Assembly: GCA_903832665.1 (NCBI GenBank)
Contig: CAILCG010000014.1
Location: 62,001 to 126,000, forward strand
Length of the DNA stretch: 64,000 bases
Source: an uncultured Methanomicrobiales archaeon
GTDB taxonomy: Archaea; Halobacteriota; Methanomicrobia; Methanomicrobiales; Methanospirillaceae
Reading direction: 5' to 3'
A program made the position numbers and the translations under genes. The notes beneath the pieces were generated by a model, which had not been told where the DNA came from, ran no database searches, and saw only the letters and a program-made list of their open reading frames with translations. Shown in pieces: positions 28,374-55,343 of the stretch (position 1 is its first letter; every line of letters begins with the position of its first letter).

Positions 28374-28416
28374 AGTTGCCGGTTACTTGGCGATAGACCC
28401 TATTACATCTTTTGTG

Positions 28417-30567: not shown

Positions 30568-30632
30568 AGCCCGGATCCCTGCTGCACCGGGCGGGATAAG
30601 GCTCAGGCTGGCGGGGGGCGAAAGTGCCGGAC
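30535..30632. repeat. 98-bp duplicated segment, copy A
   Basis: Covers the first 11 codons of the RecA-like gene and about 65 bp upstream of it. It matches 54512-54609 with about five differences in 98 positions. This copy is attached to a full gene and is likely the source. Confidence 0.85.
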
Positions 30633-30652
30633 CGATCCTGTTATTAATCCAA

Positions 30653-31948: not shown

Positions 31949-32017
31949 TCCAGTACTATGGCATGGGTGGGGTGATAAAGTATTCACCCGGGGCAGATAC
32001 GGCTTTACTTAAAAGGG

Positions 32018-32659: not shown

Positions 32660-32713
32660 AGGAATGCGTTGATGCGCAAAATATTTCAATGCTGATGATG
32701 GTAACCGGTAATC

Positions 32714-34567: not shown

Positions 34568-34733
34568 TGATTACCTCCAGGGCACCCAGGGGGCAGACTT
34601 TCGCACAGATTCCACAACTCGTGCAATTTGACTCTACAGAAAGGTACGCATCGATCAGTTCAAGGGCGCCTTCGGGGCAGACTGATACGCAGCATCCACA
34701 GTATCCACAAATATCCCGATGTACTTTGAGCAT
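34557..34733 (-). CDS. 2[4Fe-4S] ferredoxin
   Basis: 58 residues from ATG 34733 ([20 protein letters not shown]). Two CxxCxxCxxxCP clusters: [12 protein letters not shown] and [12 protein letters not shown]. The open frame continues far upstream but is not protein-like there. Its last 11 bases overlap the start of the geranylgeranyl reductase gene, so the two are translated together, and it is the likely electron donor for lipid saturation. Confidence 0.93.
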
Positions 34734-34852
34734 TGAGTGATTATGTTGGTTTTTTCCTTCATTAATAGTTACGATTGGAAAATTCTTGTACGGCAAACGC
34801 GGGCAGTAAAAAAATGGAAAAATGCAGGGTAACAGGTTGGGGAAACCGCAAA

Positions 34853-36037
34853 TCAGGGCTGTTGTACAAAACAAAACGGATCTTCCCCTAAGAGATCCCC
34901 CTTTACCGCGTGTGCACGGACCCGGCATCCTCCCCCGCAGAGTACGCGATAATTGCAGGCCTCGCACCTGCCACCAAACCGTGCTTCCTTTTGCCGGAAC
35001 CGGGAAAGAACGGGATTTGCGGTATTTGACCAGATTTCGCTGAATGGCTGATCGCGGACATTTCCGGCAAGGAATTCTAGCGAGCGGGCAAACTGGCAGG
35101 GATAGACATTCCCGTGTGCATCGATATTTGCCACGCGGGTGCCGGCACTGCACCCGCCCTTCAAGGATTCCAGCAGCTCGCGGGCATCCGCAAGATCCTC
35201 CGAACCATCCTCTTCCATGGATGCGAGCAGGTGGATGCAATCCTGGGGTGCATCGACAGTGAGGAACTCCATGGACGAGCCATCGGTCTCCTTTGCCTTT
35301 CGGTAGAGAAGGCTGAGGGCTTCAATCACCTCGTTCTTGTCGAGCTGCAACCGGTCATAGGAACCGATTCCCCGTCCAGTGGGAACGAGCCAGTAGAGGC
35401 AGAACCGTGAAGCGCCAAGCCCCTTGGCCAGATCCACGAGTGCTTCGAGCTCATGGCAGTTCTCCGTTGTGAGAGTGACCCGCACCCCGCACCGGACCCC
35501 GGCCTCCTTACAGGCAGCAAACGCTGCCAGGGTCTGTTCGAAGGCCCCGGGTGAATTCCGGAACCGGTCATGGGTTTCTGCTCGTGCACCGTCCAGCGAG
35601 ATCCCCGCATATTCAATCCCGCTTTCCTTGATCCTGCGCACGATATCGGCAGTGATCAGGGTCCCGTTCGTGCTGAGTGCCATTTTAAGGCCGGAGTTCC
35701 GGGCATGGTGTGCCAGTTCCCAGATATCTGCCCTCATCAGGGGTTCCCCCCCGGTGAAAAGGATGAGCGGGACACCCATCTGGGCCAGGTCATCGATCAC
35801 CTTCAGCGCTTCTGCAGTAGTGAACTCTCCATCTGTCGGGCTTTTCGGACCGGACTGGTTGTAACAGTGGGTACAGCTCAGGTTGCACCGATCCGTCAAA
35901 TTCCAGAAGACCACCGGACGGTACTTTTCCGAAAAAGCAAGATAATTGCTCGGTACATCGGTCAGTGGTTTGTGGCGGTGCCGCATGACATCACTCACGG
36001 TTCCCCGGCCGTGGAGGCACTGGGTGATCCGGTTCAT
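34853..36037 (-). CDS. ahbC: AhbC-type radical SAM/SPASM protein (Fe-coproporphyrin III synthase)
   Basis: 394 residues. Radical SAM cluster Cys51, Cys55, Cys58 (CNLSCTHC) and the GGEP motif, followed by a SPASM-type C-terminal cysteine set (CEACNYRVLCGGGCRVRAH). The N-terminus with RPVVFWNLTDRCNLSC and the stretch RFCLYWLVPTGRG match AhbC, which converts 12,18-didecarboxysiroheme to Fe-coproporphyrin III. Start overlaps the ahbB stop (ATGA). Last gene of the katG-ahb operon. AhbC and AhbD assignments rest on motif recall, not on a search. Confidence 0.82.
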   Translation of the reverse strand: MNRITQCLHGRGTVSDVMRHRHKPLTDVPSNYLAFSEKYRPVVFWNLTDRCNLSCTHCYNQSGPKSPTDGEFTTAEALKVIDDLAQMGVPLILFTGGEPLMRADIWELAHHARNSGLKMALSTNGTLITADIVRRIKESGIEYAGISLDGARAETHDRFRNSPGAFEQTLAAFAACKEAGVRCGVRVTLTTENCHELEALVDLAKGLGASRFCLYWLVPTGRGIGSYDRLQLDKNEVIEALSLLYRKAKETDGSSMEFLTVDAPQDCIHLLASMEEDGSEDLADARELLESLKGGCSAGTRVANIDAHGNVYPCQFARSLEFLAGNVRDQPFSEIWSNTANPVLSRFRQKEARFGGRCEACNYRVLCGGGCRVRAHAVKGDLLGEDPFCFVQQP

Positions 36038-36522
36038 GCTGCAACGCTCCGGTCTTCTTCCATTCTGGCCGCGGGAACCCGCTTGAATTCCTCAGTGCTG
36101 AAGAGCACGATATAATTTTTGGCACCGGTCATATCTGCAAGTTTTCTGACCTGGAGGAGAACACCTTCACGGCTGCGGCCATGATGGACCGTATAGAGCG
36201 TATAATCCCATCTCCCCGGCACCGATTGTCGCAGGTAACAGTGGGAGACACCGGGGAAGGATGCGAAACGGGCATAGTGTTCCGGGACTGTCGTATCCGG
36301 TACCTCCCACGCTACCACTGCATTTGCCGTAATTCCGATCTGCCTCTGGTTGATCCGTGCCCGTATTTTCCGGATGATACCGGTCTCTTTAAGCCTCTGA
36401 ATTCGCTGCAGGATTTCCGTGCCGCTGATATGGAGTCGCTTCCCCACGTCATCAAACGGTTCGCTGACAAGCGGGAGGCCTTTCTCCAGTTCCGTCAGCA
36501 GGGAACGATCAATCGCATCCAT
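36034..36522 (-). CDS. ahbB: Siroheme decarboxylase subunit AhbB
   Basis: 162 residues from ATG 36522 (MDAIDRSLLTELEKGLPLV). An AsnC/Lrp-like fold with an N-terminal winged helix (VGKRLHISGTEILQRIQRLKETGIIRKI), followed by the ligand-binding fold (TANAVVAWEVPD, HCYLRQSVPGRWDYTLYTVHHG). In the archaeal haem route, AhbA and AhbB remove two carboxylates from siroheme. It overlaps ahbA by 14 bp and ahbC by 4 bp. It could be mistaken for a transcription regulator, but the context settles it. Confidence 0.85.
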   Translation of the reverse strand: MDAIDRSLLTELEKGLPLVSEPFDDVGKRLHISGTEILQRIQRLKETGIIRKIRARINQRQIGITANAVVAWEVPDTTVPEHYARFASFPGVSHCYLRQSVPGRWDYTLYTVHHGRSREGVLLQVRKLADMTGAKNYIVLFSTEEFKRVPAARMEEDRSVAA

Positions 36523-37032
36523 GGGTACCCTCCTTCCCATCATCCGGGCAACAGGAGAATCGTACATCGATCTTATAGCGCTGGCGTGTTGGCAGGTCAA
36601 GCAGATCGGTCTCCGGGATACCCGTTCTCTCCAGTATCTCGTTCAGTACTTCACCCATCCGATCCCCGCTTGCTGCCGCAAGAGTAAACCAGATGGAGTA
36701 AGCATGATCCCTCCGGTAATTGTGGGATACTTCCGGATACCCATTGATGATCCGGGCTACCTCATGAATCCTTGAATCAGGAACCCTGAGTGCAACAAGC
36801 GTTGCGGCCGTGATTCCCAGGTGCCGGGATTCCAGAACCGGGGATACTCCCCGCAGAATACCGGTATCCTGTAAACGCTGCATTCGCTGCAGGACTTCCG
36901 CCTCGGAAATTCCCTGCCGGGCGGCAATCTCTTGCCAGGGCCGGGAAACAAGGGGGATATCATCCTGGAGTGCATCGAGTAGTTCCAGATCGATCCGGTC
37001 GTAGTTGGTAACTGGAGGTAGTGTTTCAGGTA

Positions 37033-37036
<4 letters not shown>
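36509..37036 (-). CDS. ahbA: Siroheme decarboxylase subunit AhbA, non-standard start
   Basis: The first standard ATG (36883) would cut off the helix-turn-helix region. In-frame codons run upstream through NYDRIDLELLDALQDDIPLV and on to an ATA at 37036 that overlaps the ahbD stop as ATAA. No ATG, GTG or TTG lies between 36883 and the upstream TGA. Restored length is 175 residues, as expected for AhbA. Motifs match AhbB (IPLVSRPWQEIAARQGISEAEVLQRMQRLQDTGILRG; SHNYRRDHAYSIWFT). Initiation at ATA is inferred; GTT 37012 also resembles a mutated start. Confidence 0.75.
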
Positions 37037-40765
<3,729 letters not shown>

Positions 40766-41887
40766 TTACCCGAGCGAGAATGTCCCATATTTCCCGCCGC
40801 CACCCGGGTGCAGGGTGACCGTTCCGCTCCGGAGGGCCGAGATCGCTTCGGCAACCTTCGGGTGGATCGCCCGGATCTCAGCAACCGGCACATCAAGAAG
40901 CACCGCAATCTCGTTGCCGAACGCAGCGATGAACGAGGTATAGATCGCCTTGCATTTCTTCGTATTCGGGGATGATGCTCCCTCCATCGTCTGGATGATC
41001 AGAGCCAGCGGAAGAACATGGACATAAGGCGGGCGGGGGCGGGATTCACCCCCTCCTGACAACTCCTTTGCCCGGTCGGCTACCCCCTTCTTTATGATCC
41101 CGCCATCGGCCGGGCACCGCCATGAATGTCCGGCCGCCTCCTCGAGGGAATACTGCGTGTAACACCGGGTGCAGGCCGTGCGGTTGTACTTCCCCTCATC
41201 CGGGAAGAACCCGGCATTCATCTCAATGGTGCCTTTCCTGATGCACGCCAGCACGTCTTTTGCGGTCCGGGCCCGGAGCTTCAGGCGATTGAACTCACGT
41301 CCCAGCTTGTCCGGGTAGGGGCTGTGGGCATCGGAGTTGGTGAGGAACGGGACGCCATACAGGTCAGGGATTGCCGCCCCATAGGAACTGTCTGCGGAGA
41401 GTCCAATCTCAAGAAAGTCGATCTTCTCATTCCCATAGCAGGCCGGGACGCTGTCAAAGTAGGCATACATCGCGGTCCACGGGGTAAAGGCATGGGCAGG
41501 ACCCACCAGGGCCCCGACCTCATGGGCAAGCACAGCGATCTCCTCCCCGCTCAGGTACACATGAGGGCGGCCGCTCATCTCAAAACACTTACATTTCCCT
41601 TCCAGCAGGTCGCGGAGCTGGCTGAACTGGGCGAGATCTTCTGCCAGGATCACGTGATGGACACGTTTTATATCCTCGATCTCGCACTGCGGAACGATGA
41701 CAATGCCGGCCTCATTTTCGAGATATGGTTCCCAACCCCTCTGCCATACCGGCTGGAGAGCATCCCCGGTGCCGAGCACCTGGATACCCTTTGTCCTGCA
41801 CCCCGCCAGCAGCTGTTCCGGCTGCATGAAACGCGATACCGCTATTGAGTAGGGGGAATGAATATGAAGGTCGGCATTGGCGAGCAT
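40766..41887 (-). CDS. PHP-domain protein, endonuclease Q-like
   Basis: 373 residues. The PHP metal sites are ADLHIHSPYS (His8, His10), HEVGALVGPAHAF and LTNSDAHSPYP. A Cys4-type zinc finger (CTRCYTQYSLEEAAGHSWRC) and a helical C-terminus follow. This build matches the archaeal endonuclease Q family, which cuts DNA 5' to deaminated bases such as hypoxanthine and uracil. It is a single gene. The family assignment is by architecture. Confidence 0.75.
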   Translation of the reverse strand: MLANADLHIHSPYSIAVSRFMQPEQLLAGCRTKGIQVLGTGDALQPVWQRGWEPYLENEAGIVIVPQCEIEDIKRVHHVILAEDLAQFSQLRDLLEGKCKCFEMSGRPHVYLSGEEIAVLAHEVGALVGPAHAFTPWTAMYAYFDSVPACYGNEKIDFLEIGLSADSSYGAAIPDLYGVPFLTNSDAHSPYPDKLGREFNRLKLRARTAKDVLACIRKGTIEMNAGFFPDEGKYNRTACTRCYTQYSLEEAAGHSWRCPADGGIIKKGVADRAKELSGGGESRPRPPYVHVLPLALIIQTMEGASSPNTKKCKAIYTSFIAAFGNEIAVLLDVPVAEIRAIHPKVAEAISALRSGTVTLHPGGGGKYGTFSLG

Positions 41888-42128
41888 GAGTACGTGTATG
41901 GTTGCCCTTCACGGTATATAATATTCATGAAGGTACGCGGGTAATCCTGACGTGGTCCTGAACCACGGTCAGGGAGAAAAACGGGGGGTTAAACGGTGAG
42001 CCCGAAAGGAGAACTCGCTGTGGCGGGAAAGAGGCAACCGGCAGAAAGACGGGAGAGTAAATTCTGCCGATCCGCAATCTCCTTAACCTTGCCCGCCAAA
42101 AGCCGCATATACGGGATAAAGGAAGCGT

Positions 42129-42404
42129 ATGTCAATGAATAGGCAGGTCCTCAAATGGTTCGTAAATCTCGCAATGGGTATTGTATTCGTGTCCAGTTTT
42201 GTGACCGGGCTCTTCAAGTTCACGATCCTGACGAGAGCATTTGGTCTCACCGATATCATACTCCCTGCGGCACTGATGAGTAACATCCATGACTGGTCCG
42301 GACTTACCCTCTCCCTTCTCGTGATGGTCCACCTCTTCCTGAACCGTGCATGGATACTCTTAATGACCCGAAAGATACTTGCCGGCACGGTCAACACCGC
42401 ATAA
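42129..42404 (+). CDS. DUF4405-type small membrane protein
   Basis: 91 residues. Two or three membrane segments, with histidines in SNIHDWSGLTLSLLVMVHLFLNRAW that are the expected haem ligands of DUF4405/cytochrome b-like domains. Convergent with the molybdopterin oxidoreductase at 42438, 33 bp apart. It may accept or supply electrons for that enzyme, like MsrQ for MsrP (inference). Confidence 0.65.
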   Translation: MSMNRQVLKWFVNLAMGIVFVSSFVTGLFKFTILTRAFGLTDIILPAALMSNIHDWSGLTLSLLVMVHLFLNRAWILLMTRKILAGTVNTA

Positions 42405-42437
42405 AATAAAAAAAAGTAAAACTAAAACCGGCCGCGA

Positions 42438-43130
42438 TTAGGCAGAGTAACTCTTGTCCAGATCGCCGGAATTGGAATACCCCCGCTGCTCCCAGTATCC
42501 CCGGTATGTGGGATCGCTGGTCAGCTCGATCTTCTCGATCCACTTCACCCACTTGTATCCCCATTTGTCTTCGGCCACCAGCTCGAAGGGATAGCCGCGT
42601 TCCGCGGGTAGCGTGACATTGTTCATATTGTAGGCCATGATGATATCCCGGTTCATCAGGTACTCGAGCGGGAACGAGGTCGTATAGCCATCGTGAGCGG
42701 TGAAGACCACGGTATTTGCCCGGGGATCCGGCCCGGCTTTCCGTATCAGGTCCCGCACCAGTACGCCCTTCCAGAGAATGGTTGCATCCCAACCCTCCAC
42801 ACAATGGAGCGTGACGACTTTTGTATAATGCGGGTATTTCGCCAGCACTTCTCCATAGGAGTAGACATCGGTCTTGTAGGTCAGTCCGGTGACGGTGAGG
42901 CGGTAATCCACTTCATTGATGTGCTGGGGGCCCCGTATGGAATTTTCATGGAAATCATTGATTGACGAGAGATCTTTTCCTTCGTAGGACCTGACTTCAA
43001 CGGGTGACAGTTGGGTTGATCCTTCGGGATGCAGGCCGGATTCAAGTTCGGGAGTGCCGAGAACAACAAAAGCCACCGCAGCCACAATAATGATTGCAAT
43101 GACAAGAACCAGCTTTGAATTCATCAGCAC
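42438..43130 (-). CDS. Molybdopterin-dependent oxidoreductase, sulfite-oxidase fold
   Basis: 230 residues. An N-terminal membrane/signal helix (LVLVIAIIIVAAVAFVVLG) places it outside the membrane. The Moco-binding domain includes the Cys ligand in VTLHCVEGWDATILWKGVLVRDL and the ending YPFELVAEDKWGYKWVKWIEKIEL, typical of the YedY/MsrP-like group. Start could be ATG 43130 or 43124. Moco supply may be linked to moaE at 62660. Substrate unknown. Confidence 0.83.
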   Translation of the reverse strand: MLMNSKLVLVIAIIIVAAVAFVVLGTPELESGLHPEGSTQLSPVEVRSYEGKDLSSINDFHENSIRGPQHINEVDYRLTVTGLTYKTDVYSYGEVLAKYPHYTKVVTLHCVEGWDATILWKGVLVRDLIRKAGPDPRANTVVFTAHDGYTTSFPLEYLMNRDIIMAYNMNNVTLPAERGYPFELVAEDKWGYKWVKWIEKIELTSDPTYRGYWEQRGYSNSGDLDKSYSA

Positions 43131-43249
43131 TGAACTGATCGCTGGATCTTATCAACATTGGGATGGTGACACGGTTGTCAGAAGACGATAGAAAATGCTG
43201 AAAAAGCGGAGTAGTAATGGAGAAACAAACTCCATTGCCCGTTTGTTCC

Positions 43250-43867
43250 TTACTCCATATTGGTGAGACGCCCTTTGAGTTCCCCGGGATCCTCTTTCTT
43301 GGCTTCCATCAGGGCCGAGATGACAGCATCGGAAAAGATCAGCGCAAGGGTCTCAAAAAGGGTTCCGAGGGGGGCAAATGCTGAGGAGGTTGACCGGTAT
43401 TTTCCGGTCATCTGCCGGATCTCGTACGAAGTCTGGTCCCCATGGTAATACCCGGTGAGATCGCCTAAGTTGACCACGCAGTCCGCGATTTTACTGATCT
43501 TCGATTCCGGGGAGGCGGTGATGAGGCAGATCGTGCCCCCGAGTCCCTTGACCGTGGCACAGATGGTTGCCATGGATACCGTCTCGCCAGATCCCGAGAA
43601 GACCACCATGGTATCTCCCGGCGCCAGGGCCGGGGTGACGGTTTCGCCGACAACGTACACGTCATAGCCAAGGTGAAGCAGCCGCATGGCAAACGCCCGG
43701 GCAATGAGTCCCGAACGACCCGCGCCGGCAACATATATCCGCTTGGCCTTGAGCAGGTAAAGGAAGAATGCGGAAGTCTCAAGGTTATCCAGCATGGCGG
43801 CGGTCTTTTTTATCGACTCTGCCATCTGCTCCATAAATAACGGGATATCAGAAAATTCGTCTGTCAT
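43250..43867 (-). CDS. hxlB: 6-phospho-3-hexuloisomerase
   Basis: 205 residues from ATG 43867 (MTDEFSDIPLFMEQMAESI); the frame is open 21 codons further up. SIS domain: KRIYVAGAGRSGLIARAFAMRLLHLGY, VVFSGSGETVSM, and the family C-terminus with SAFAPLGTLFETLALIFSDAV. In methanogens this enzyme works in reversed ribulose monophosphate metabolism to make pentose phosphates. The hexulose-phosphate synthase partner is not in the window. Confidence 0.87.
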   Translation of the reverse strand: MTDEFSDIPLFMEQMAESIKKTAAMLDNLETSAFFLYLLKAKRIYVAGAGRSGLIARAFAMRLLHLGYDVYVVGETVTPALAPGDTMVVFSGSGETVSMATICATVKGLGGTICLITASPESKISKIADCVVNLGDLTGYYHGDQTSYEIRQMTGKYRSTSSAFAPLGTLFETLALIFSDAVISALMEAKKEDPGELKGRLTNME

Positions 43868-43960
43868 TATGCTACAGGCATATTTTGTACCTGCCGTTAT
43901 GAGCATATCGGTCCAGGCCGGAAAGGGCACGGTTTATGACCCGGTATCGCCATCATCTGG

Positions 43961-44239
43961 ATGATGATGCGGATCACCGCTGTTGCCCGAGGCGAGGTGC
44001 AGGGAGTCGGGTACCGGTATTTTGTCACAGGTTGTGCACGGGCAGCGGGCGTGACCGGGTATGTGCGAAACCAGCCTGACGGTTCGGTGGTGATGGTGGC
44101 GGAGGGGGAGCAGGCAGCACTGGATGTGTTTGTTAAGATGGTGAAGGCAGAGGGGGATGCGGTGATCCGCGTGGATTCCCTCTCAGTGACAACCGGAGAT
44201 GCAAGTGGTGAGTTTTCCGGCTTTGGGGTGAAGTGGTGA
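43961..44239 (+). CDS. acyP: Acylphosphatase
   Basis: 92 residues. The catalytic loop GEVQGVGYRYF (with its conserved Arg) and GYVRNQPDGSVVMVAEG (conserved Asn) are the acylphosphatase signatures. Hydrolyses carboxyl-phosphate bonds. It is divergent from hxlB, with the starts about 90 bp apart. First methionines at 43961, 43964 and 43967 are all possible starts. Confidence 0.92.
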   Translation: MMMRITAVARGEVQGVGYRYFVTGCARAAGVTGYVRNQPDGSVVMVAEGEQAALDVFVKMVKAEGDAVIRVDSLSVTTGDASGEFSGFGVKW

Positions 44240-44772
44240 AAGACCCGGGGATTTTTCGGGAGATATGGGGGGTCGGGCGGTGTACTTAGTGGCACGGTAC
44301 CCGCTCCGCGGTTTCCTCATACTACCACTGCTTTGTGGAGAACTACTGACGGCAAAAGGCAGGCATTTGAATGAATAAAGTCCTAGTTATTCAGGGTCGC
44401 GGGGAACGCATGGCCGGGTTAGTACACCGCCAGACCCCCTCCGGTCCCGGGCCGGGTTATTCCGTATAGGGTACATTTTATAGATATACATCTTATGCAT
44501 TTGATGTGCCGAGCGGGTCACTTGGGGTAGGGGGGTCGGGCGGTGTACTTTAAGAGAAGTAGGTATGGGGCGTCCGGACTTTCCAGAACGCATGCCCGTT
44601 CTTGTCCATATAACACACTATCCTCATAGTCGCTGTTAGGCCCATCACCGTCCATCTCAGCAAGTGTCGCATCGGACGTTGTCGTATCATGCTGGAGAAG
44701 GCTGGATTAATTTCGTACCTATCCAAAACCTCATACTCTCCCACTACCAGAACATCCACCCATGGTGATCTG
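44240..44772. other. Non-coding region with inverted repeats
   Basis: About 530 bp before the peroxiredoxin with no supported gene. Three copies of a 19-20 bp motif occur: ggggggtcgggcggtgtact at 44267-44286, its inverse at 44421-44439, and a direct copy at 44531-44549. The last two bound a 129-bp AT-rich segment. Confidence 0.6.
44421..44549. repeat. 129-bp segment with 19-bp terminal inverted repeats
   Basis: Left arm agtacaccgccagaccccc and right arm gggggtcgggcggtgtact match at 18 of 19 positions when inverted. The interior carries a TATA-like stretch (attttatagatatacat). It could be a MITE or a structured regulatory region. A third copy of the arm lies at 44267-44286. Confidence 0.55.
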
Positions 44773-45234
44773 ATGACCCCGTCAGGAATGGCGCAGGTGG
44801 GCGAGACTGCACGGAATTTCTCGCTCAAAGACCAGAACGACAAGACCTTCGATCTCTATGAACAGGCAGGAAAGCGGGTACTCCTCTCATTCCACCCGCT
44901 CGCCTGGACCGAGTACTGTGCAGCCCAGATGAAATCGCTCGAAGAGAACCGGGCAGCACTCCTGGCAAAAAACTGTGTACCGGTCGGCATCAGTGTTGAT
45001 TCGATTCCCTGCAAAAAGGCATGGGCAAAGGATCTGAAGATAAAAGAGACACCGCTTCTCTGCGACTTCTGGCCGCATGGCGCGGTTGCCATGGAATTCG
45101 GGCTCTTCCGGGACCAGAACGGTTTTTCCGAGCGGGCCAATGTGATCGTGGATGAGAAACAGAAGATTGTTTTTGTCAAAGTCTACCCGATACATTCCGT
45201 GCCGGACATCCAGGAGATCCTATCTTTTCTCTAA
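44773..45234 (+). CDS. Peroxiredoxin (AhpC/TSA family)
   Basis: 153 residues from ATG 44773 (MTPSGMAQVGETARNFSLKD); the frame is open 28 codons upstream without support. The peroxidatic Cys is in HPLAWTEYCAAQM, and additional Cys residues occur downstream (KNCVPVG, SIPCKKAW, LLCDFW), any of which could resolve the disulfide. Reduces peroxides. Functionally linked to katG 4.5 kb away, although it has its own promoter. Confidence 0.9.
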   Translation: MTPSGMAQVGETARNFSLKDQNDKTFDLYEQAGKRVLLSFHPLAWTEYCAAQMKSLEENRAALLAKNCVPVGISVDSIPCKKAWAKDLKIKETPLLCDFWPHGAVAMEFGLFRDQNGFSERANVIVDEKQKIVFVKVYPIHSVPDIQEILSFL

Positions 45235-45426
45235 ACCCGTAAACTAATTTTTTTAAAATAGTGGGAATCCCGTTGCCCTATGCAAAAGACCTTCTTCTAA
45301 GCACCGATCGGTATTTTTCGGGATTGATCCCCCCTCATCCGGGCGGTTTTTTCACTTGGTGAAGAAACGCCCGGCCGGGAAAATTTGTCACGGAGATCCC
45401 GACCGGAGCCGGGAGTTCTGTACATA

Positions 45427-46243
45427 TTAGTTCCTGATCAGGAGAACCTGTCTCACGTCATCCAGGCTCATGCCCTTGGTGATCTTGTTCCCGTACAGCA
45501 GCTGCAGCGCCTTGATATCAACCGGATTCAGGTCGGTCACGCCATTATCCACTGCATAGAAGATGCTGTCAGGATAGGTCCCGGTCTCCCCGGGAAGGCC
45601 CAGCTCGTACAGGAGTCCTCGGAGAAGCCAGTGGGTCCGCTCGTCACCGGTAAGATCGGAATTGATATAGATCATCTCGGTCGGGAAGGACTGGTAGCTC
45701 GTAGTCCTGAACATGTAATAGATGGTCCCGGTGGAGGGGTTCCGGTATACTTTCCACGTATTATCGGAGTTCACTGCTTCCAGGCCATTTGAAGGGATAA
45801 AGCGGATGACAATATTGCCCTGCTCACCCTGCTTCACTTCCGAAGGGAGCCGGGTATTGAAGGAATTGTTGTTAAAGACCAGGAAGAACCGGTTCAGGGC
45901 AACAACATCGGAATCCTTGTAAGACCCGGTGATGGCAACGGTGAGGAGCTGGTTGCTGAAGCGGCGGATATTGCTGTTGTCGGCACTGAACGCCACGTCA
46001 ATAAAATGCCGGTTGATCTCGTCACTGGAGTACACGAGCCTGGCTGTGGGAGCCGGGGACGGAACATTCACCGGGGAGACCGGGGCAACGGAAGGTGCAA
46101 CTGAGGGGGGTGGGAATCACCGGTGTCTCAGCAGATGTAGGAACAGGAGTTGCAGGATCCGCCGGGGAGGACGGGGCCGTGCATCCCGCGAAAATGATTG
46201 CGATTCCAACGACCAGGACAAGGAGTATTGTTGCGTATTTCAT
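45427..46243 (-). pseudogene. DUF2927-like secreted lipoprotein, frameshifted
   Basis: The upstream frame gives a signal peptide with a lipobox (MKYATILLVLVVGIAIIFAGC) and a Pro-rich linker. The downstream frame (from 46071 to 45427) gives the body (EINRHFIDVAFSAD, HWLLRGLLYELGLPGETGTYPDSIF). The switch is at a run of six G (plus 46105-46110); five would restore ..PTPSVAPSVAPVSPVNVPS... The body resembles DUF2927, a metalloprotease-like family, but no HExxH is retained. Anchored outside the membrane. Confidence 0.7.
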
Positions 46244-46425
46244 GGGAATTTTTCACCGATGAAGGGTTATATGGAGTGTATCCATTTAAAATTTGATATC
46301 AACGCAAAACGACGGAAGGAATCCGGAAGTTCGTATGAATGGCGACCAATGACGGTCAAACAAGGATGGGGAATATCACACAAAAAAGAATGTTACGAAA
46401 GAATGTTGAGAAGAATGGGACTCAG

Positions 46426-47178
46426 TCACCCGATATAACTGAGCTCTTCGTCTTTCTTCTCGCCCTCGACCAGACCTTCGATGACCTTCTCCATCTCTGA
46501 AGCCCGGTCATTGAGTTTCGTGGGATCGACAGGCACATCGATCAGTTTCGAGAGTACGCACAGGACATTTGCCGCACTCATCGGGTCAACAAGATACCCG
46601 CTCGTCTCGCCCATCAGGCAGGCTGCATCAATCCCGCGCTGTGCCGACAGGCCCAGCATAAGACCGGCAGCCCCGATGATGCCGCCACCGGGTTCATCAC
46701 GGTTGAACGTAACGCCGGCCTCTTCGAGTTCCGGGCGGAGTTCCGCACGGTTCACGGCACCCAGCACCCGGGGCTGATCCACCAGGTGCCCGACACCAAA
46801 CCCGCCGAGCGTATAGATGCGCTTAACCTTGAGTTCCTGGGCGATCTCGCAGTACTGGTCGGCCAGGATATAGTGGCCTTCATTCGACGTGCTCTGGTGA
46901 TCGCCGACCAGGAAGATGATATCATGACCTTCCGAAGAGTACAGGAAGAGCTCGTTTCTCGCCAGCCGGGCAAGACCCGTCTCATCGAGCAGCACCTGGG
47001 GAGGAAAATAGATCGAATGAATCTCGCCAATCTTCTCGGCCTTGAGCATGTGAATCATGTACTCGGCCACGAGTTTGCCGACCTGGCCGATACCGGGCAG
47101 GCCTTCGATGAGAATCGGCTCAACCGGGTGCTTGTCCTTGAAACACTCGAGGTAGCTGATCGTGATATCTTCAATCAT
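46426..47178 (-). CDS. PAC2-family protein (second copy)
   Basis: 250 residues from ATG 47178 ([22 protein letters not shown]), which overlaps the nop10 stop. PAC2 core [22 protein letters not shown], then [20 protein letters not shown] and [20 protein letters not shown]. Shares the GxPGxGxVG turn with the gene at 3433. The cluster aIF2-alpha/nop10/PAC2 is common in archaea and suggests a role near ribosome or proteasome assembly. Confidence 0.88.
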
Positions 47179-47326
47179 GCAGGGCCATTCTCCGGTACTT
47201 ACCGTACTTGTCTTCAGGTGAATAGCGGGCCGGGTGGGCCACGACTGTGGGCTTACCACAGGCAGGACAGGTTAAAGAAAGAGTATAGATCCGGTCCTCG
47301 GGACACCGCCGGATTCGGCCACTCAT
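47171..47326 (-). CDS. nop10: Nop10 ribosome biogenesis protein
   Basis: 51 residues, read by eye: [40 protein letters not shown], then [11 protein letters not shown]. The CxxC zinc ribbon and [13 protein letters not shown] are the Nop10 signature. A component of H/ACA RNP for pseudouridylation. It overlaps the aIF2-alpha stop by 4 bp and the PAC2 start by 8 bp, so all three are coupled. Confidence 0.95.
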
Positions 47327-48111
47327 TGACTCTTCCCGGATTTCGGTTTCTTGATGAGCTTGCCTTCGCCGCCAGCTTTCTCAACAACCGCGATCGCGGC
47401 ATTGGCTGCCTTCTCGATCGCTTTCTCCGCCTTCTTGTAGTCCGGGGCGGTCACTTTGATCCGGTACAGCGGTGCACCGAGATACAGCAGCTCAATTGCT
47501 ACACCGGCAATCTTGGGCTCGGCACTCTTGAGTGCCTTCTTGATCACCGAGATGCCATCAGGGGCTGAACTGGTAAGTTGCAGGTGTCCCGTGACTTCAA
47601 CACTGGGGACCTTGACATTCTCCTGGGCTACATGGAGAAGAGCATCGGAGACCTTTTTGGAAAAACCGAGCTTCTTGACCGTGCTTTCCGGTTCAATGAC
47701 AAGGTCTTCAAAGACCGGGTAGAATGAGCCGTATTTGTTGAAGATCTCATCTTCAATGATCTTGGCATCTTCCCCCGACTGTTCCGCAGCAAAGCCGAGC
47801 CACTTCTGCGCTTTGGACTCGTTCTTCCACTCGCGGATCTTCTCTCGCCGCTGGTGCTCGTTGACATCCTTTAACGAGAGATCAATGTGACCGCGGTTCC
47901 GGTCAACATTGAGCACCTTGCAGACGATCTTCTGGCCTTCACGGACATGGTCACGGATATGCTTGATCCAGCCGGTTGCAATTTCAGAGATGGGGATGAG
48001 CCCCGGGCGGCCACCATACTCATCCAGCGATACAAACGCTACGAAGTCCTTGACGTTTACCACTGTGCTTACGACAAGTTCTGATTCCTGTGGCCACTCT
48101 CTGTCCTGCAT
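47323..48111 (-). CDS. eif2a: Translation initiation factor aIF2 alpha subunit
   Basis: 262 residues from ATG 48111 ([20 protein letters not shown]). An N-terminal S1 domain ([31 protein letters not shown]), a helical middle domain, and the C-terminal domain that binds the gamma subunit ([23 protein letters not shown]). The frame extends four codons up. The S51-type loop of eukaryotes cannot be judged. Lies between rps27e and nop10 in a standard archaeal translation cluster. Confidence 0.95.
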
Positions 48112-48119
48112 GGGTAGTA

Positions 48120-48308
48120 TCACTTGAGCTCTGAGATTATCTCAGCCTTGAAGCTTGCCTTGCCCCCGGCGGGGGTGGAAAGATCATGTCCGCAGACTAC
48201 GCACTTTACTACGGTGCTTGCCTTCTCAAAGACGGTCTGCTCGTTCTCACAGTCTGGACACTTTACCTTGTAAAATTTACTCCGGTTATCCCGAATTACG
48301 CTTACCAT
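48120..48308 (-). CDS. rps27e: Small ribosomal subunit protein S27e
   Basis: 62 residues. Zinc ribbon CPDCENEQTVFEKASTVVKCVVCG, the hallmark of S27e, with the FYKVKCPDC start. Sits 8 bp upstream of the aIF2-alpha start and 6 bp after rpl44e. Same operon. Confidence 0.95.
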   Translation of the reverse strand: MVSVIRDNRSKFYKVKCPDCENEQTVFEKASTVVKCVVCGHDLSTPAGGKASFKAEIISELK

Positions 48309-48314
48309 TATCGC

Positions 48315-48593
48315 TCACTCCGTAAGTTCAAACTTCGCGACACGGTATCCCTTGCGCAGGTGTGCCTTTCCACAGGTGACACAGCGGTACCGGACGTTGA
48401 TCTTCTTCGTCGGCTTGTCGCCGCCGGGCACCTTGGAGAATTTACCCATGTTGCCTACTTTTCCCCTGCGTGCCTTCTGACGGTCGATCCAGTGGAGGCC
48501 GGTTGTTTTGCCTTTCTTTACCTTCTCAACCTCGTGAATCTGGTGATTCCGGCAGAAAGGGCAATAGGTGTTGAATTTCGCTGGCATTTTCAT
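48315..48593 (-). CDS. rpl44e: Large ribosomal subunit protein L44e
   Basis: 92 residues from ATG 48593 ([20 protein letters not shown]), preceded by cggtga seven bases upstream; the frame is open much further but not protein-like. Zinc finger CPFC/CVTCG; basic middle region ([17 protein letters not shown]). It starts the L44e-S27e-aIF2alpha-Nop10-PAC2 run. Confidence 0.95.
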
Positions 48594-48631
48594 AAAATTT
48601 TCACCGATAAGTTGGATATAGAATACCAATA

Positions 48632-49294
48632 TTATTTGCAAAGATTGATATTTAAGACTATGTTGCGTTCCGTTAAGACCGCAGCATTCCGCTCGGGAAG
48701 CGTCACTATATCTCCTTTTGAAAGAGTATAAATCCTCCCATCCACTCCCATGAACGAGTCCATATTTTCGAGTGCGCGTACGAGAACACAGGGGTGCGTA
48801 TGGGGTAAGTGGGCCCGGGGTTGCGCAGGAACGGGACTTGCGGCTGCGCATTCGTCATCAGAAAAGGGTTCAGGCTCACCGAATTCGTCAACCTCTGCCA
48901 CTTTTGCAACCGACACATGGGGAGCATTGTACAGGAGTATGCGCTGGCACTGCTCGATGGCAGCCGTGATCTGGTCAAACATCTCCCGTTCAGCGGGAAT
49001 GGTCCGTTTCACTTCCTCACGATCGTAATAATTGCCCTCGGCATGCATGATGGTGAGAGCCAGAATCTTGCGCGACCGGATGGCAAAGAGATCGTGAAGG
49101 GTCTCCTTGATAGCCAGGGTCTCTTCAATCAGGGACCGGGCTTCATCGGAGAGGGGATCGTCAAGCTCGTACACCTTTGCCATCAGCGACGCCAGCTCTT
49201 CGTGCCCGCGCTCAAAAATATCCGGGTCGGTTGCTGTCAGCCTTCCCGTCTCCCGCTCCGATAGCAGGATACTGCGCAGATCGTCAAGCTTCAT
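48632..49294 (-). CDS. GINS complex subunit (Gins15/Gins51 type)
   Basis: 220 residues from ATG 49294 ([20 protein letters not shown]). The helical A domain comes first ([37 protein letters not shown]) and the small beta B domain is at the C-terminus ([30 protein letters not shown]). This A-B order identifies the Sld5/Psf1-type archaeal GINS. Works with MCM and Cdc45/RecJ at the replication fork. It lies next to priS, and the Pro/His-rich linker (about 145-175) is unusually long. Confidence 0.85.
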
Positions 49295-49303
49295 CAAGGT
49301 ACC

Positions 49304-50437
49304 TCAGGCAATCTCTGCCATACCGCGACAGCAGAGGAATACGGCGACTGCTTCCGGTACTGTAATGATGCCTTTTTGGAGCTCATAAGTACTTCCGAGC
49401 ATCGGCATCTTCAGGGCCATCCGGCAGTCCACCCTGACATCCCGCGTGCCAAAGACCACCGCATCGGTGAGCGGATCGAATTCGTGCAGGCTACGTAGCT
49501 CGAGCGGCTGTACCCGCATGCCGCTCCCGCCATGCAGGGACGTGGGCAGGCGGATCAGTCGCTTGGTATCGGTTGTCACCGGTTCATCGGCAAGGGCCGC
49601 CCGGGCGAGCAGGCGTTTCCTGAACTCGCCTTCCTGCTGGGCCGTGACGACCGACAGGACACGACTTGTTTTGAGGATTGCGGGGGAAGGGTGGCGTTCA
49701 ATGCCCGTAAGAATCTCTTCCCGGTTTTTCAGGAACGTGACCGCCGACTCTTTCCCGATGCCTTCCAGGCCGGTGAGATGGGCCATTGCCTCAGGTTCGG
49801 GCAGGGAACCCACCCAGCGAACGTACTCCAGGAGGGCGTCCCGGTACCGGCTCGGCCAACCGGGCGTTTTGATATTCTTTCCGGTCAGCATCACCGCAGG
49901 GTCGATTCCGATCCCGCAGATATAGTCGATCAGTTCCCGGCGCTCCGCACTGCCCCAGCCGCGAAAGGCCAGGTCCCGGACATGCACATGGTATCCCCGG
50001 CCCCCCGAGAAGACCAGCTCGATGGTTTTGGGATCCATGCCAAATTCGTCGAGCAGGATAGCGAGGAGCTTCTCCGTCTCTTCCTTCACGCGGGCCAGCA
50101 TCAGGTCATAGGCCCCCCGCACGATATGATCGGCATCAAGGTCAAAGATCAGGTCGGCCCCGCACCAGCCCTTCTCGCCCATGGTGCCGGCATCCGGTTT
50201 CTCGTAGTACGCGGTCGAGTAATAGGTGTGCTGTGGTACCACGTTTTTCAGATACTCGAAGAGTTCGTCCCGTCCCAGAAACCCGACATGGCGCCGCATG
50301 CGCATCTCGGTTGCACCGGGATTGAAGAGCACAAACCCCCATTCACGCTGTTCGAGGGCAGGCGGGGCTACAAGCACGGTTTTTTTGAAGTACTCGGTAA
50401 ATCGCTGCCGGACGAATGCCGTTGTTGCCGGGTTCAT
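49304..50437 (-). CDS. priS: DNA primase small (catalytic) subunit PriS
   Basis: 377 residues. Catalytic Asp motif in ADLIFDLDADHI, followed by the primase fold blocks VFSGGRGYHVHVRD and RLIRLPTSLHGGSGMRV. Synthesises RNA/DNA primers together with PriL, which is not in the window. Ends six bases before the GINS gene start and overlaps the Elp3 stop by 4 bp, forming one operon. Confidence 0.95.
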   Translation of the reverse strand: MNPATTAFVRQRFTEYFKKTVLVAPPALEQREWGFVLFNPGATEMRMRRHVGFLGRDELFEYLKNVVPQHTYYSTAYYEKPDAGTMGEKGWCGADLIFDLDADHIVRGAYDLMLARVKEETEKLLAILLDEFGMDPKTIELVFSGGRGYHVHVRDLAFRGWGSAERRELIDYICGIGIDPAVMLTGKNIKTPGWPSRYRDALLEYVRWVGSLPEPEAMAHLTGLEGIGKESAVTFLKNREEILTGIERHPSPAILKTSRVLSVVTAQQEGEFRKRLLARAALADEPVTTDTKRLIRLPTSLHGGSGMRVQPLELRSLHEFDPLTDAVVFGTRDVRVDCRMALKMPMLGSTYELQKGIITVPEAVAVFLCCRGMAEIA

Positions 50438-52026
50438 GACCGTTCCCTGACCATAAGTTCCTTGACCATATATGGCCCTGCACGCTCATAGCCCTGTCTC
50501 CGGTAATAGGGCCGTACCCCCATCCCGCTCATGATGGCGAGGCGGGAGAACCCGGCCGCAGTCGCGGTCTCTTCCGCAAGGGCCAGCAGGGCCCGCCCGT
50601 AATTCCGGTGCTGGTACTCTTCCGGATCCGCATCGCTGCCCACCGGCACGATCCCCCCGTAGACATGCAGTTCCCGCATCAGGGCGGCATCCTCCAGTTC
50701 GGGCCGATAGACCATGGAGGGGAACCGGAGACGGGTAAAGCCGATCAGGGAATCATCGGAAACTGCCGAGATGAAGTGCTCAGTCCCGCCACAGCACTCG
50801 TACTTCTTCAGGCGCATCTCGGATTTTGCCACCGAGGGGAGGCGGCCGATCTCCCTGCACCGGATACACCGGCAGGCCCGACCCGTCAGTTTCATCCGGT
50901 TCTGGGCCAGCTGGCGGAAGTTGGAATGCCGGGAACCGGCAACGATCAGCTTGGCCGGGATGTCCCGCTGGATGCGCTGGAGGCGCATGAACTCGGGGAT
51001 CCGGGTTTTGGCATACGCGATGAGTTCAACGAGTTCGTCCTCCAGGTACGGGGCATAGATCCCCCGGTTCCAGTGGTCCTCGATCTCGGAGCCGGGCGTG
51101 ACCAGCGTAGGATAGATCTTGAGGAAGTCCGGCATGAACCGGGGATCGGTAAAGATCGTGTCGAACATCTGCCGGTCCGACTCCTGCGTGGAGGTGGGGA
51201 GGTTGGGCATCATGTGGAACCCGACCTTGAGGCCGGCATCGCGGAGCAGGGTATTGGCGGCAACGGTATCCTCAACCGTGCATCCCCGCCGGTTATACGC
51301 AAGGATTGCATCATCCACGTGCTGGACGCCGAGTTCAACTTTTGTGACCCCCAGGCCCAGCATCCGGTCGATATGCTCGCGCCGGCACCAGTCGGGCCGT
51401 GTCTCGAACGTGATCGCAATACAGCGGATTGCAGACAGTTCGTTGGCATCCTCAACGGACGCGACAACAGGAGGTTCCTGTGCTGGAATCCCCCCGGGGT
51501 ACGTGTTCATCGACTCGATGCATCGCGAGACAAACTGCTCCTGGTACTCGGGAGTGCGGGCAGTCATGGTCCCGCCCATCACGATCAGCTCCACCTTGTC
51601 CACCCGGTGACCCAGCGCCTCGAACTGTTCGAGCCGGGCCTGGACCTGCATGAAGGGATCATAGTTATGTTCCCGGGCCCGGAGGGCCGCCGGTTCTTCC
51701 CCCGTGTAACTCTGGGGGGACTGGAAGATGTGTTCAGGTCCCCCGGGGCAGGGGAGGCATTTGCCATGCGGGCAGGGGGCAGGCGAGGTCATCACGGCGA
51801 CCGGTGCAACGCCGGAAAGGGTGCGGGTCGGCTTGACCAGCAGGATCTTCCGGAGGACTTTCTTATCCTCCGGTAACGCTGCAGCAAGAATCGCAGAATT
51901 TTTCGGTACCGCAGAAAGCCGGTACTTCTTGCAGATATCGATCTTGATCGCTACGATCGCATCATCGCCGGGCGGTAACGTGAGGATGCGGGAGATCATC
52001 TCCCGGAATGCCAGCACCTCATCCAT
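50434..52026 (-). CDS. Elp3-type tRNA U34 modification radical SAM/acetyltransferase
   Basis: 530 residues. Radical SAM Cys motif CPHGKCLPCPGG, Elp3 blocks FETRPDWCRREHIDRMLGLG and GVQHVDDAILAYNRRGC, and a C-terminal GNAT domain (RNYGRALLALAEETATAAGFSRLAIMSGMGVRPYYRRQGY). Makes carboxymethyl uridine at tRNA position 34. Archaeal Elp3 acts without other Elongator subunits. It is first in the operon before priS and GINS. Confidence 0.94.
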   Translation of the reverse strand: MDEVLAFREMISRILTLPPGDDAIVAIKIDICKKYRLSAVPKNSAILAAALPEDKKVLRKILLVKPTRTLSGVAPVAVMTSPAPCPHGKCLPCPGGPEHIFQSPQSYTGEEPAALRAREHNYDPFMQVQARLEQFEALGHRVDKVELIVMGGTMTARTPEYQEQFVSRCIESMNTYPGGIPAQEPPVVASVEDANELSAIRCIAITFETRPDWCRREHIDRMLGLGVTKVELGVQHVDDAILAYNRRGCTVEDTVAANTLLRDAGLKVGFHMMPNLPTSTQESDRQMFDTIFTDPRFMPDFLKIYPTLVTPGSEIEDHWNRGIYAPYLEDELVELIAYAKTRIPEFMRLQRIQRDIPAKLIVAGSRHSNFRQLAQNRMKLTGRACRCIRCREIGRLPSVAKSEMRLKKYECCGGTEHFISAVSDDSLIGFTRLRFPSMVYRPELEDAALMRELHVYGGIVPVGSDADPEEYQHRNYGRALLALAEETATAAGFSRLAIMSGMGVRPYYRRQGYERAGPYMVKELMVRERS

Positions 52027-52031
52027 AAAAT

Positions 52032-52298
52032 TTAATGTTCTGCTGCAACCGTCTGGGTGGCAGTCTCTGAAGAATAGTTCACCACCGGCACAGGTTTGCC
52101 GTGGATATGGGTAACAATCTCATCCCCAAGCGTGAGGAGAGCGTCTTTGTGGGCTTTTTTGTCCTTATGAATATGAACCGGAGATATTTCCAGCGAGGCG
52201 TAGCGTTCCGTCCCGATCTCCTCGTTGGTGATGCCTTCGTAATACTTCTTGATGTGAATCATCAGCATATGTAAATGTAGCAACTCTTCTTTTTGCAC
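52032..52298 (-). CDS. UPF0058 family protein
   Basis: 88 residues beginning MQKEELLHLHMLMIHIKKYYEG, the UPF0058 pattern, with HKDKKAHKDALLTLGDEIVTHI. His-rich N-terminus. The family is archaeal and has no assigned function; it is often found near replication or translation genes, as here beside Elp3-priS. Confidence 0.85.
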   Translation of the reverse strand: MQKEELLHLHMLMIHIKKYYEGITNEEIGTERYASLEISPVHIHKDKKAHKDALLTLGDEIVTHIHGKPVPVVNYSSETATQTVAAEH

Positions 52299-52374
52299 AC
52301 TATCACCTTCTCCAGAGGAATACTATTTTTTGATCAGCACATATAGTTTTTTGATGATGTTTATATCTGGCACA

Positions 52375-53238
52375 ATGCGACACGTAGGATCACTGGTTGC
52401 GCTCGCAGTTGGGGATGCAATGGGCGCGCCTTTGGAAGGATCTCTGCAATCTGAAGCTTGGGTGATAGATATGCGTCCCGGTGGGCGCCATTTCCGAAAA
52501 AAGGGTGCGATCACCGACGACACTTTGCAGGCCATGGCTGTTGCAGAATCGCTCGCAGCCGGTAAGGGATTCAACCAAAAAGACCTTATATCTCGTTTAT
52601 TTTTCGGGTACATAAAAAGCCCGGAATGGTACGGTCCCACATCAACAGTATTTTTCGATCTGGTCAAATCCGGGACCCTGCCGCACCATGCCGCTTACCT
52701 CGTGCACCGGCGCAATGGCAGCAGCCGGACGAATGGGAGCGTGATGCGGGGGTTCCCGCTCGGGATCTTCTATCCCGCCCCGGAAGTCTATGCTGTCAGC
52801 ATGGCCTGCTCGCGGCTCACGCACTATGATCCGGTTGCGGGTCACTGCTCCGGGTTCCTGAACGTGATGGTGAGCGATATGATCCGGGGAGCCCCCCGGT
52901 CGCGGGCATTCCGGCATGCTCTCTCGCTCTGTCCTGACCCGGAGGTGCATGCTATGCTTGGCAGCTATGATGAGCATGAACCTATTCCCTCGCTGGACAG
53001 CGTGCTGTGTTCGCATGCGACCCTGCATTGTTTCATGCATGCCCGGACACTTGAGGGGGCTATCCTGTCAGCGATCAATCTGGGGGGGGATGCCGATACG
53101 GTTGGTGCTTGTTGTGGAGCTCTGGCGGGAGCATACTGGGGAGTGGGGGCGATTCCAAAACGATGGTGTGCTGATCTGGAGGGATATGGGGAGCTGGTGC
53201 AGCTGGCTGCGCGGGTGTGGGAGAGGACTGAACGGTAG
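52375..53238 (+). CDS. ADP-ribosylglycohydrolase family protein
   Basis: 287 residues from ATG 52375 (MRHVGSLVALAVGDAMGAPL); in-frame methionines extend to 52330. The metal site is formed by the GDAMGAPLEG turn, ITDDTLQAMAV and LGGDADTVGACCGALAGAYWG, the DraG family signature. Removes ADP-ribose from proteins or small molecules. No DraT-type partner is seen. The DUF4405, pilin and nif genes are unrelated by position. Confidence 0.88.
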   Translation: MRHVGSLVALAVGDAMGAPLEGSLQSEAWVIDMRPGGRHFRKKGAITDDTLQAMAVAESLAAGKGFNQKDLISRLFFGYIKSPEWYGPTSTVFFDLVKSGTLPHHAAYLVHRRNGSSRTNGSVMRGFPLGIFYPAPEVYAVSMACSRLTHYDPVAGHCSGFLNVMVSDMIRGAPRSRAFRHALSLCPDPEVHAMLGSYDEHEPIPSLDSVLCSHATLHCFMHARTLEGAILSAINLGGDADTVGACCGALAGAYWGVGAIPKRWCADLEGYGELVQLAARVWERTER

Positions 53239-53394
53239 CAGCCGGAAATGGCTGGTATCAAGGCTGCTGAAGAAATTTTAAAATGGGTTCTGGTTGAGAT
53301 TTTATGCTCTGTAGAAACCTCAATCCAAACAAATTGTATGAACGTGTCAAGGTTCGCGATAATGATCTTACATGAGATCCTTCTTATTAATCGG

Positions 53395-54325
53395 GAAAAT
53401 ACGGGATTTCAGGTCAGCCCCGAACCTTCTTTTCAGGACAGAAAATTTGGTTTCGACCAGGAACCGGTTACGATACCGGACAAAGTCAAAATTGTCGGTC
53501 ATCTCCTTTCGATATTTCCCCCAGATATTCGTGGTACCTTTGATGGATCCGAGCTGGAATAATCGAATCCGCGTTGAGAGTTTCACGAATATACCGATGC
53601 ATTTTCTCGGAATCATAACCCAGGTCCAAAATGACATAGCACTGACATTTTTGGCGTTTAAGAAATTTCTTCAGAAGTATGATGCACGTTTTGAGTCATG
53701 AACCCGGCTTTTTGAAATCGTGAATCCAATATGCATATCAGTATCAATAGAAATCGATGTTTTCAGGAAATGTTTTCGGATATTTCCGGTTCTTTCAGAG
53801 TAATAATGACTACAGTACCCGCTGGTAAATCCGGATGAATCAATGGCGGTCATGGAGATCACATCGTCTTCAGAATAGAATAATTTCAGCGTGTTTTTTA
53901 AAAGGAGATTGAAGTATAGGGGTTTGATACGACAGAGAAATTTTTGATGGGTTGTGAAATGAGGAATCGGTTGAGACCAGTACTGCCGGATACTATCCAT
54001 CTCTTCGAGGTTCCAGATGACGGTACGATAGTCTTCTTTTCCGATAGTCTTTGAAAAGAATTAGTATCAACAGCTGATGTTGAGTGTAATCTTTTCTCGA
54101 ATATTGCAGGAATAGGGCGTGAGTCGAGTGGACTGGATTAGGGAAGATGCTTGTTTGATAAAACTGATAAACCGGCCAGACAATTTCTTATTTGTCTCCT
54201 GACCTGTTAGTAGCATAACATTGTATGGAGACACCGTACCTTAGATCTTTCGGTCGTTTTTCCCTCGATTTTTCTTTGTGACGAAAATTATTTCTACAAA
54301 GCAAATTTTTTTTAATCGCGATCAT
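53395..54325 (-). pseudogene. Degenerate IS4/IS5-type transposase element, copy 2
   Basis: Homologous to 23990-24835, same orientation. The catalytic Asp region is present ([34 protein letters not shown]) and the C-terminal Glu region (YRNRFLVETKFSVLKRRFGADLKSRIF), but the frame is broken between them and upstream. It retains about 110 bp that copy 1 has lost. The shared flanking DNA (54080-54325) includes ttagtagcataacattgtatggagacac. Neither copy can move on its own. Confidence 0.8.
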
Positions 54326-54420
54326 GAGGTGTCAGTTGATGAGACGATTATCGGATAATTATCCGACAAAATGTATATAGAACTGACAAAAAAGTTCTTT
54401 CTCCGGCGTGATGGTTCCGA
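54305..54420. repeat. Dispersed nested-palindrome element, copy 2
   Basis: Outer arms tgtcagtt (54330-54337) and aactgaca (54381-54388) enclose the perfect palindrome cggataattatccg at 54352-54365. Arm spacing equals that of the copy at 6884-6941. It abuts the end of the IS remnant. Confidence 0.65.
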
Positions 54421-54511
54421 GATTTACAGCAGGGTTTGCCAGAAAAAAATGAGGGTGGGGCGAAGGGTCGATTGAAATTTTTTTGCCGGAGATCGATGTG
54501 CGATTTTTTTC

Positions 54512-54609
54512 CAGGGTGATCCCTTTTGAGAGCTCGATCAGCATAGCCCGGATCCCTGCTGCACCGGGTAGGATAAGGCTCAGGATGGCGGGGGGTGAAA
54601 GTGCCGGGC
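54512..54609. repeat. 98-bp duplicated segment, copy B
   Basis: Matches 30535-30632 almost exactly and includes ATG 54544 with 11 codons of the RecA-like gene (MLIELSKGITL), after which the frame diverges. It lies between the IS remnant and the SRAP gene. A gene-start fragment without its gene. Confidence 0.85.
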
Positions 54610-54654: not shown

Positions 54655-55343
54655 ATGTGCGGCCGGTACTCCCTCATCTGCATCGATGATCTCGGCAACC
54701 GCTTCCGCATCTTCAACCCGATGCTCGGGGCCCGCTCGAAGTTCAATATTGCTCCCGGTACCCGGCAACCGGTGATCGTGCGGGGGGCATCCGGCAGGGA
54801 ACTCGTGCAGATGCAGTGGGGGCTTATTCCCCGCGGGACACGGTGCCTAGGGCTGCACACCCGGTCATCAATGCCCGGGCAGAGGCCCTGGCGGAAAAAC
54901 CCTTGTTCGCTTCACTGCTGAAAACGAGACGCTGTCTTGTACCGGCAAGCGGATTTTTTGAATGGAAGCAGGAGGGCACGCGGAAGCATCCTTTTTACCT
55001 GTCGGTACGCGACCAGCCGCTCTTTGCCTTTGCCGGCCTGTACGATGAGGGGCACGATCCCGCAGGAACCCTGGTTGCACAGTATACGATCATAACGACC
55101 GGGCCCAATGCCCTGGCAGCAACGGTGCACAACCGGATGCCCGTGATCCTTTCTCCGGAATCAGAAGAGACCTGGCTTTCCGGCGAACAACCGGACGCTG
55201 CGCAACTGAAGAAAATGTTTGTACCGTTTCCTGCGGAAAAGATGGCGATGCACCCGGTCTCCCTGCTGGTGAATGGGCTCCCGGCTGATGACGAACGGGT
55301 GGTACGACCTGTAGTTTCTTTAGACGATGAGTACCTACAGTAA
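54655..55343 (+). pseudogene. SRAP (HMCES/YedK) DNA-protein crosslink protein, frameshifted
   Basis: Starts MCGRYSLIC at 54655, with Cys2 being the catalytic residue. The first frame carries WGLIPRG; the second (to 55343) carries NARAEALAEKPLF, CLVPASGFFEWKQ and VHNRMPVIL, all family motifs. One base is missing between 54838 and 54852, giving a shift without a long homopolymer. If read through, the protein would have about 230 residues. It shields abasic sites in single-stranded DNA. Confidence 0.85.

Follow-up and report, generated by a model that had tools for sequence, protein, structure and literature searches.

The promoter and first 11 codons of a RecA-like gene occur twice, 24 kb apart, in the 64,000-nucleotide stretch of DNA analyzed here (the window), which raises the question of how the second copy arose and what the duplicated segment might control.

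The duplicated segment and the order of the blocks around it

The first copy (P1, 30535..30634, minus strand) carries the promoter and first 11 codons of the gene identified below as iRadA; the second (P2, 54512..54611, minus strand) carries a cut iRadA end and the ancestral region between iRadA and a SRAP gene. The two are in direct orientation and identical at 95 of 100 positions without gaps. Because the iRadA ATG lies at 30567 on the minus strand, P2 contains exactly 11 iRadA codons together with the leader, so that the original prediction of a repeat across the gene start and leader, with promoter and 11 codons duplicated, was borne out, although the length it gave (98 bp with about 93 matches) was 2 bp too short. 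A search of the whole 2.88-Mb genome, a draft assembly of 28 contigs, recovered the pair (E 1.4e-39) without any third copy; the remaining matches were the neighboring dispersed repeat or short. With just two copies in the genome, the earlier suggestion of a mobile control segment is not supported, and a larger repeat family without a link to the gene, named beforehand as the competing outcome, was not found in this search. A mobile repeat family was rejected, since only two copies are present; further genomic copies, as a mobile element or attachment site would have, were absent.

P2 was described as lying beside an IS remnant. The remnant (53378..54303), which has a weak DDE_Tnp_1 match, is indeed nearby but not in direct contact, since a dispersed 0.2-kb repeat (54310..54511) intervenes and abuts P2. 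This repeat, of which 13 copies were aligned, is found at 54310-54511 and at 12 other places in the genome and contains an inner GGATAATTATCC palindrome; one of its ends touches the cut iRadA remnant. The proposal that P2 is the remainder of another gene copy, cut by the IS, holds insofar as P2 is a leftover iRadA 5' end; it fails in that the intact copy is the one that moved and that the dispersed repeat, not the IS, abuts the remnant.

Comparison with relatives located the region either between iRadA and SRAP or ahead of iRadA alone. In related Methanoregula genomes, iRadA and SRAP are transcribed away from each other on either side of a single copy of the region. Of the 19 relatives' loci compared (L010-L028), 11 have SRAP next to iRadA in this divergent arrangement (at one of the 11, in G013, the contig ends and the match is weak), which supports the reading of P2 as the ancestral site beside SRAP. 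When both copies were aligned with the 19 relatives, P2 resembled them right up to the SRAP start; the similarity of P1 ended at 30634, where the 3' flank of an S2P protease gene follows at a clean joint. These flanks indicate that P2 has kept the ancestral place beside SRAP and that P1 travelled with iRadA. The copies resemble each other more closely than either resembles any of the 19 relatives (at most 90 of 100 positions), and the duplication is therefore younger than the split from these relatives. In one relative (L096, G001), SRAP and its zinc-ribbon neighbor were lost independently from between iRadA and NadA, and the promoter box of iRadA described below is kept; in another (L046:5274-11983, G004), approximately 7 kb of additional DNA lies between the zinc-ribbon gene and NadA.

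When the 69 window ORFs were compared with the relatives' loci, the present order was found to be C-IS-A-P1-D-IS-repeat-P2-SRAP. Block A (24812..30567, minus strand; 25241-26596, 26874-28373, PolB2, PPB2, and iRadA) lies beside SRAP in relatives, and block C (3121-23862) adjoins S2P there, joined straight to block D (30656..53235), which runs from the S2P protease to an ADP-ribosylglycohydrolase gene. In all 10 relatives examined at that place (G001, G010, G014, G015, G017, G020, G021, G029, G033, and G034), C adjoins S2P without any block A; block D is whole in 7 of them, and in G017, G020, and G029 it is interrupted after the geranylgeranyl reductase gene, with block A next. The comparison shows two ancestral adjacencies, and three new joints in the window, and the conserved block now between iRadA and SRAP measures approximately 23 kb.

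Of the three new joints, two have an IS copy, and there is none at P1. The copy at the C/A joint (23982..24810) is oriented like the copy at 53378 and is 86-88% identical to it in two aligned pieces, and these are the genome's only two long copies of the IS. Their divergence of 12-14% exceeds the 5% between P1 and P2, so that the IS copies may predate the duplication and not belong to one single event.

We consider it likely that an ancestral divergent control region was duplicated by rearrangement, leaving one copy with each gene, and that its box marks repair genes. The starting point would have been one control region between SRAP and a divergent iRadA leading an iRadA-PPB2-PolB2 operon. 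Most likely, a segment with A and P was then duplicated beside D, and the original A was deleted back to iRadA codon 11; this order of steps is the one that we infer. The operon would thereby have come to lie upstream from D and SRAP downstream from it, with one promoter copy each, and the IS may have had a role in the rearrangement.

Three other origins were weighed. Staggered inversions can duplicate break regions, and two or more of them, rather than duplication and deletion, might have produced the P copies; block D is in fact inverted in G034, approximately 60 kb from SRAP. A single simple inversion is ruled out, as it would give inverted P copies, and the direct orientation found here calls for a second inversion, so that we regard this route as rather unlikely. 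An assembly artefact, in the form of chimeras joined at P or at the IS copies, is conceivable in a draft genome of 28 contigs. It is very unlikely in view of the divergence of both the IS and P, which assemblers usually resolve, and of the P1/D joint, which has no repeat besides P; there are two P copies either way. Finally, a 24-kb mobile element might have entered between iRadA and SRAP, with P as its target-site duplication or attachment repeat; direct repeats flank exactly 24 kb, and relatives have one P copy at that place. We find this highly improbable: the 24 kb consists of conserved housekeeping genes (S2P, RNase HII, primase, and Elp3), a block that adjoins C in each of the 10 relatives examined, no IS is present at P1, and there is no third P copy. 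Duplication followed by deletion remains our preferred history; the duplication itself is an ordinary rearrangement, whose interest lies in the promoter box that it exposes.

A decaying PolB2 mutasome module

The RecA-like gene (30043..30567, minus strand) is intact and encodes a protein of 174 amino acids with orthologues that are 46-93% identical. The protein had no match in Pfam, and its profile retrieved nothing credible from PDB sequences; an AF2 model built from 13 sequences (mean pLDDT of 68.6) found DMC1 and RecA as its best PDB structures (E 5e-5 to 2e-4). Its 174 residues begin at the core, with the N-terminal domain missing, and no Walker A motif was seen by eye in the 13 aligned sequences. 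In relatives, the gene is followed by one for a small PPB2 protein (start MGRSFESVR) and then by PolB2. Given the DMC1/RecA fold, the lack of Walker A, and the adjoining PPB2 and PolB2 of relatives, the gene is iRadA, the inactive RadA paralogue of the PolB2 mutasome. In one relative (L037:17442-19697, G033), iRadA and PolB2 are apparently fused in one 752-aa frame.

iRadA is whole in the window, and PPB2, PolB2, and SRAP are broken. The PPB2 remnant (29986..30040, minus strand) keeps the start MGRSFESVR and then the C-terminal end alone, in another frame, the middle having been lost. PolB2 (28417..29924, minus strand) is frameshifted near 29550 and lacks approximately 119 residues; it is a single ORF of 666-752 aa in relatives (11 loci examined), and the missing residues lie between both flanking parts in the 10 loci that show both. 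SRAP (54655..55343, plus strand) is frameshifted between 54843 and 54861, with Pfam PF02586 matched by both pieces, and is a single ORF of 215-252 aa in relatives (8 loci with a match). The locus is thus a mutasome operon caught in decay, in which iRadA survives and the promoter persists in two copies.

PMC11791011 describes the PolB2 mutasome operon as iRadA-PPB2-PolB2, gives PPB2 an MGRT start, and notes an enrichment of SRAP and orc1/cdc6 in the neighborhood of PolB2; the word "promoter" is absent from its main text. The gene order, the inactive RadA-like fold, and the MGR-type PPB2 start in relatives agree with that description, as does a SRAP gene nearby, whereas in the window PPB2, PolB2, and SRAP are broken and SRAP is separated from the operon.

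A promoter box ahead of repair-type genes

The best-conserved part of the duplicated region reads CACTTTC(A/G)CCCCCCG, followed by TTATCC and by the ATG approximately 45 nt past the box. The box stands at 30613..30626 in the first copy (CACTTTCGCCCCCC) and at 54590..54603 in the second (CACTTTCACCCCCC), and the TATA-like TTATCC, recognized by its sequence and by the AT peak, at 30594..30599 and 54571..54576, all on the minus strand. Among the 19 relatives, 18 retain the core of the box (GYGAAAGT when read on the opposite strand), also where SRAP is lacking. In SRAP's own direction the box was found in none of 21 aligned rows, and co-regulation of SRAP is what position alone would suggest.

As counted from the match listings, GGGGGGNGAAAGTG matched 62 times in 60 relatives plus this genome, compared with 4 times for its reversed control, and CACTTTCNCCCCCCG had 112 in 232 genomes of the order against 1 for the control; the full 15-mer was present in only 74 of these 232 genomes. 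Over 122 distinct sites, drawn from these matches and from other loci, AT content peaked at 0.71 at +25 to +29 from the box start, the peak as a whole covering +25 to +34, with no comparable peak upstream from the box. Within the own genome, the box was no commoner than the control when up to 3 mismatches were allowed (159 versus 159); sites with a TATA-like sequence gave 12 rows versus 4 for the control, 2 of the 12 being second spacings of the same site.

An ORF of at least 50 aa starting 10-160 nt downstream was present at 113 of the 122 sites, and the 9 sites without one were dropped. Families are more safely counted here than sites, since genes are shared among relatives through common ancestry. 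The largest clusters were iRadA (20), a 130-aa family (19), RadA (10), PPB2-like proteins (8), and radical-SAM repair proteins (8, of which 7 match TIGR03916), followed by RPA (6), RNase_H_2 (4), YhgA-like proteins (4), Orc1/Cdc6 (2), HNH (2), and other small clusters or singles. Counting iRadA, RadA, PPB2-like, radical-SAM, RPA, RNase_H_2, Orc1/Cdc6, and HNH, 60 of the 113 ORFs belong to repair-type or repair-associated clusters, a bias also seen when the ORFs were tallied by Pfam and NCBIfam. Within the own genome, RadA, HNH, RNase_H_2, and NreA genes follow the box, and a weaker core, CACCTTC, precedes a relative of Holliday-junction endonucleases; 10 candidates there, taken from the closest matches (the looser search having no excess over control), comprised 5 that match repair families, 4 without a match, and 1 that matches DUF4440.

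The position of the box, just ahead of TATA like an extension of the BRE, would also suit a general strong-promoter element, for instance a Methanomicrobiales BRE or GC-rich upstream element, and the other 53 of the 113 ORFs, which are unknown, non-repair, or probably false, fall outside the repair-type clusters. Against this, ACTTTCRC occurred within 160 nt upstream of all 30 RadA genes examined (drawn from the 54 of 60 genomes with a match) and of none of 30 thermosome genes (drawn from 60 of 60 genomes with a match). CACTTTC was present at 26 of the 30 RadA loci. Together with the strong skew of the downstream families to repair and the identity of the core with a published Halobacterium UV-B motif (PMC2556686, available text), this makes a general element improbable. 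The box CACTTTC(A/G)CCCCCC, approximately 25 nt before TATA, is most likely the site for a DNA-damage-responsive activator.

Several genes behind the box are observations in their own right. A second, unlinked PPB2-like family (68-89 aa) has its own box (L275:1248-1451 in the own genome, L208, L159, L129, and others), and in G052 and G057 (L173 and L172) such a gene is divergent to SRAP across the box, like iRadA here. A 130-136-aa protein without a Pfam match is the second commonest gene behind the box (19 sites, most of them in a single other genus, and L282:1031-1438 in the own genome). YhgA-like (Transposase_31) genes behind it are found in one genus (G045 and G066; L137, L163, L210, and L211), and Orc1/Cdc6 paralogues stand directly behind it at L167:852-1997 (G058) and L227:203-1324 (G146).

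The box predicts, from sequence alone, a repair regulon across the methanogen order Methanomicrobiales, and it marks unknown genes as candidate repair proteins.

Relation to archaeal damage motifs

In the available text of PMC2556686, the UV-B motif TTTCACTTTCA of Halobacterium NRC-1 lies upstream from the TATA box at the UV-B-induced radA1, top6B, vng17, and vng280, and a similar motif is noted in the Methanospirillum hungatei radA. The methanogen box has the core CACTTTCA in common with it, as well as the position upstream from TATA and before radA. The exact 11-mer TTTCACTTTCA is not preserved at the methanogen boxes: CACTTTC is kept, whereas the 5' TTT is not conserved and a C-tract follows the core. 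The methanogen gene set is also much larger than the one given there for Halobacterium, adding iRadA, RPA, radical-SAM, RNase_H_2, HNH, and NreA. The motif core was therefore already known; the C-tract, the connection with the PolB2 mutasome, and the set of genes across the order appear to be new, as they were not found in the literature searched, of which coverage is incomplete, and a text search for the 11- and 13-mer box strings returned no archaeal paper. Phylum-wide, ACTTTC occurred within 200 nt before RadA at 15 of 30 loci drawn from 60 genomes with a match.

The Sulfolobus damage element, A(N)TTTC at -44 to -39, reads 5'-ACTTTC-3' at upsE (PMC5817253, available text) and is bound by Orc1-2 (PMC9738581, available text). 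As far as these texts describe it, it resembles the methanogen box in having ACTTTC in the same direction, in being non-palindromic, and in lying upstream from BRE/TATA, and it precedes damage genes including orc1-2, as the box precedes two Orc1/Cdc6 genes in methanogens. The methanogen box differs in probably lying 8-10 nt further upstream, at about -50 as judged from its distance to TATA. The boxed Orc1/Cdc6 genes at L167 and L227 resemble the autoregulated Sulfolobus Orc1-2, and these two genes are only a hint that binding might be Orc1-2-like.

With a core that matches the Halobacterium UV-B motif and resembles the Sulfolobus damage element, the box looks like the methanogen branch of an archaeal DNA-damage regulon, its induction by damage being presumed. 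It suggests that the Halobacterium and Sulfolobus motifs are one element, and whether archaea beyond Sulfolobales have a common damage regulon is now a directly testable question. Going further, we propose tentatively, as a possibility more doubtful than probable, that CACTTTC(A/G)C is the methanogen form of an ancient damage element common to Halobacterium and Sulfolobus, read by an activator of the Orc1/Cdc6 family that would control its own gene, the PolB2 mutasome, RadA, RPA, and several uncharacterized small proteins; if true, this would be an archaeal counterpart of the SOS regulon.
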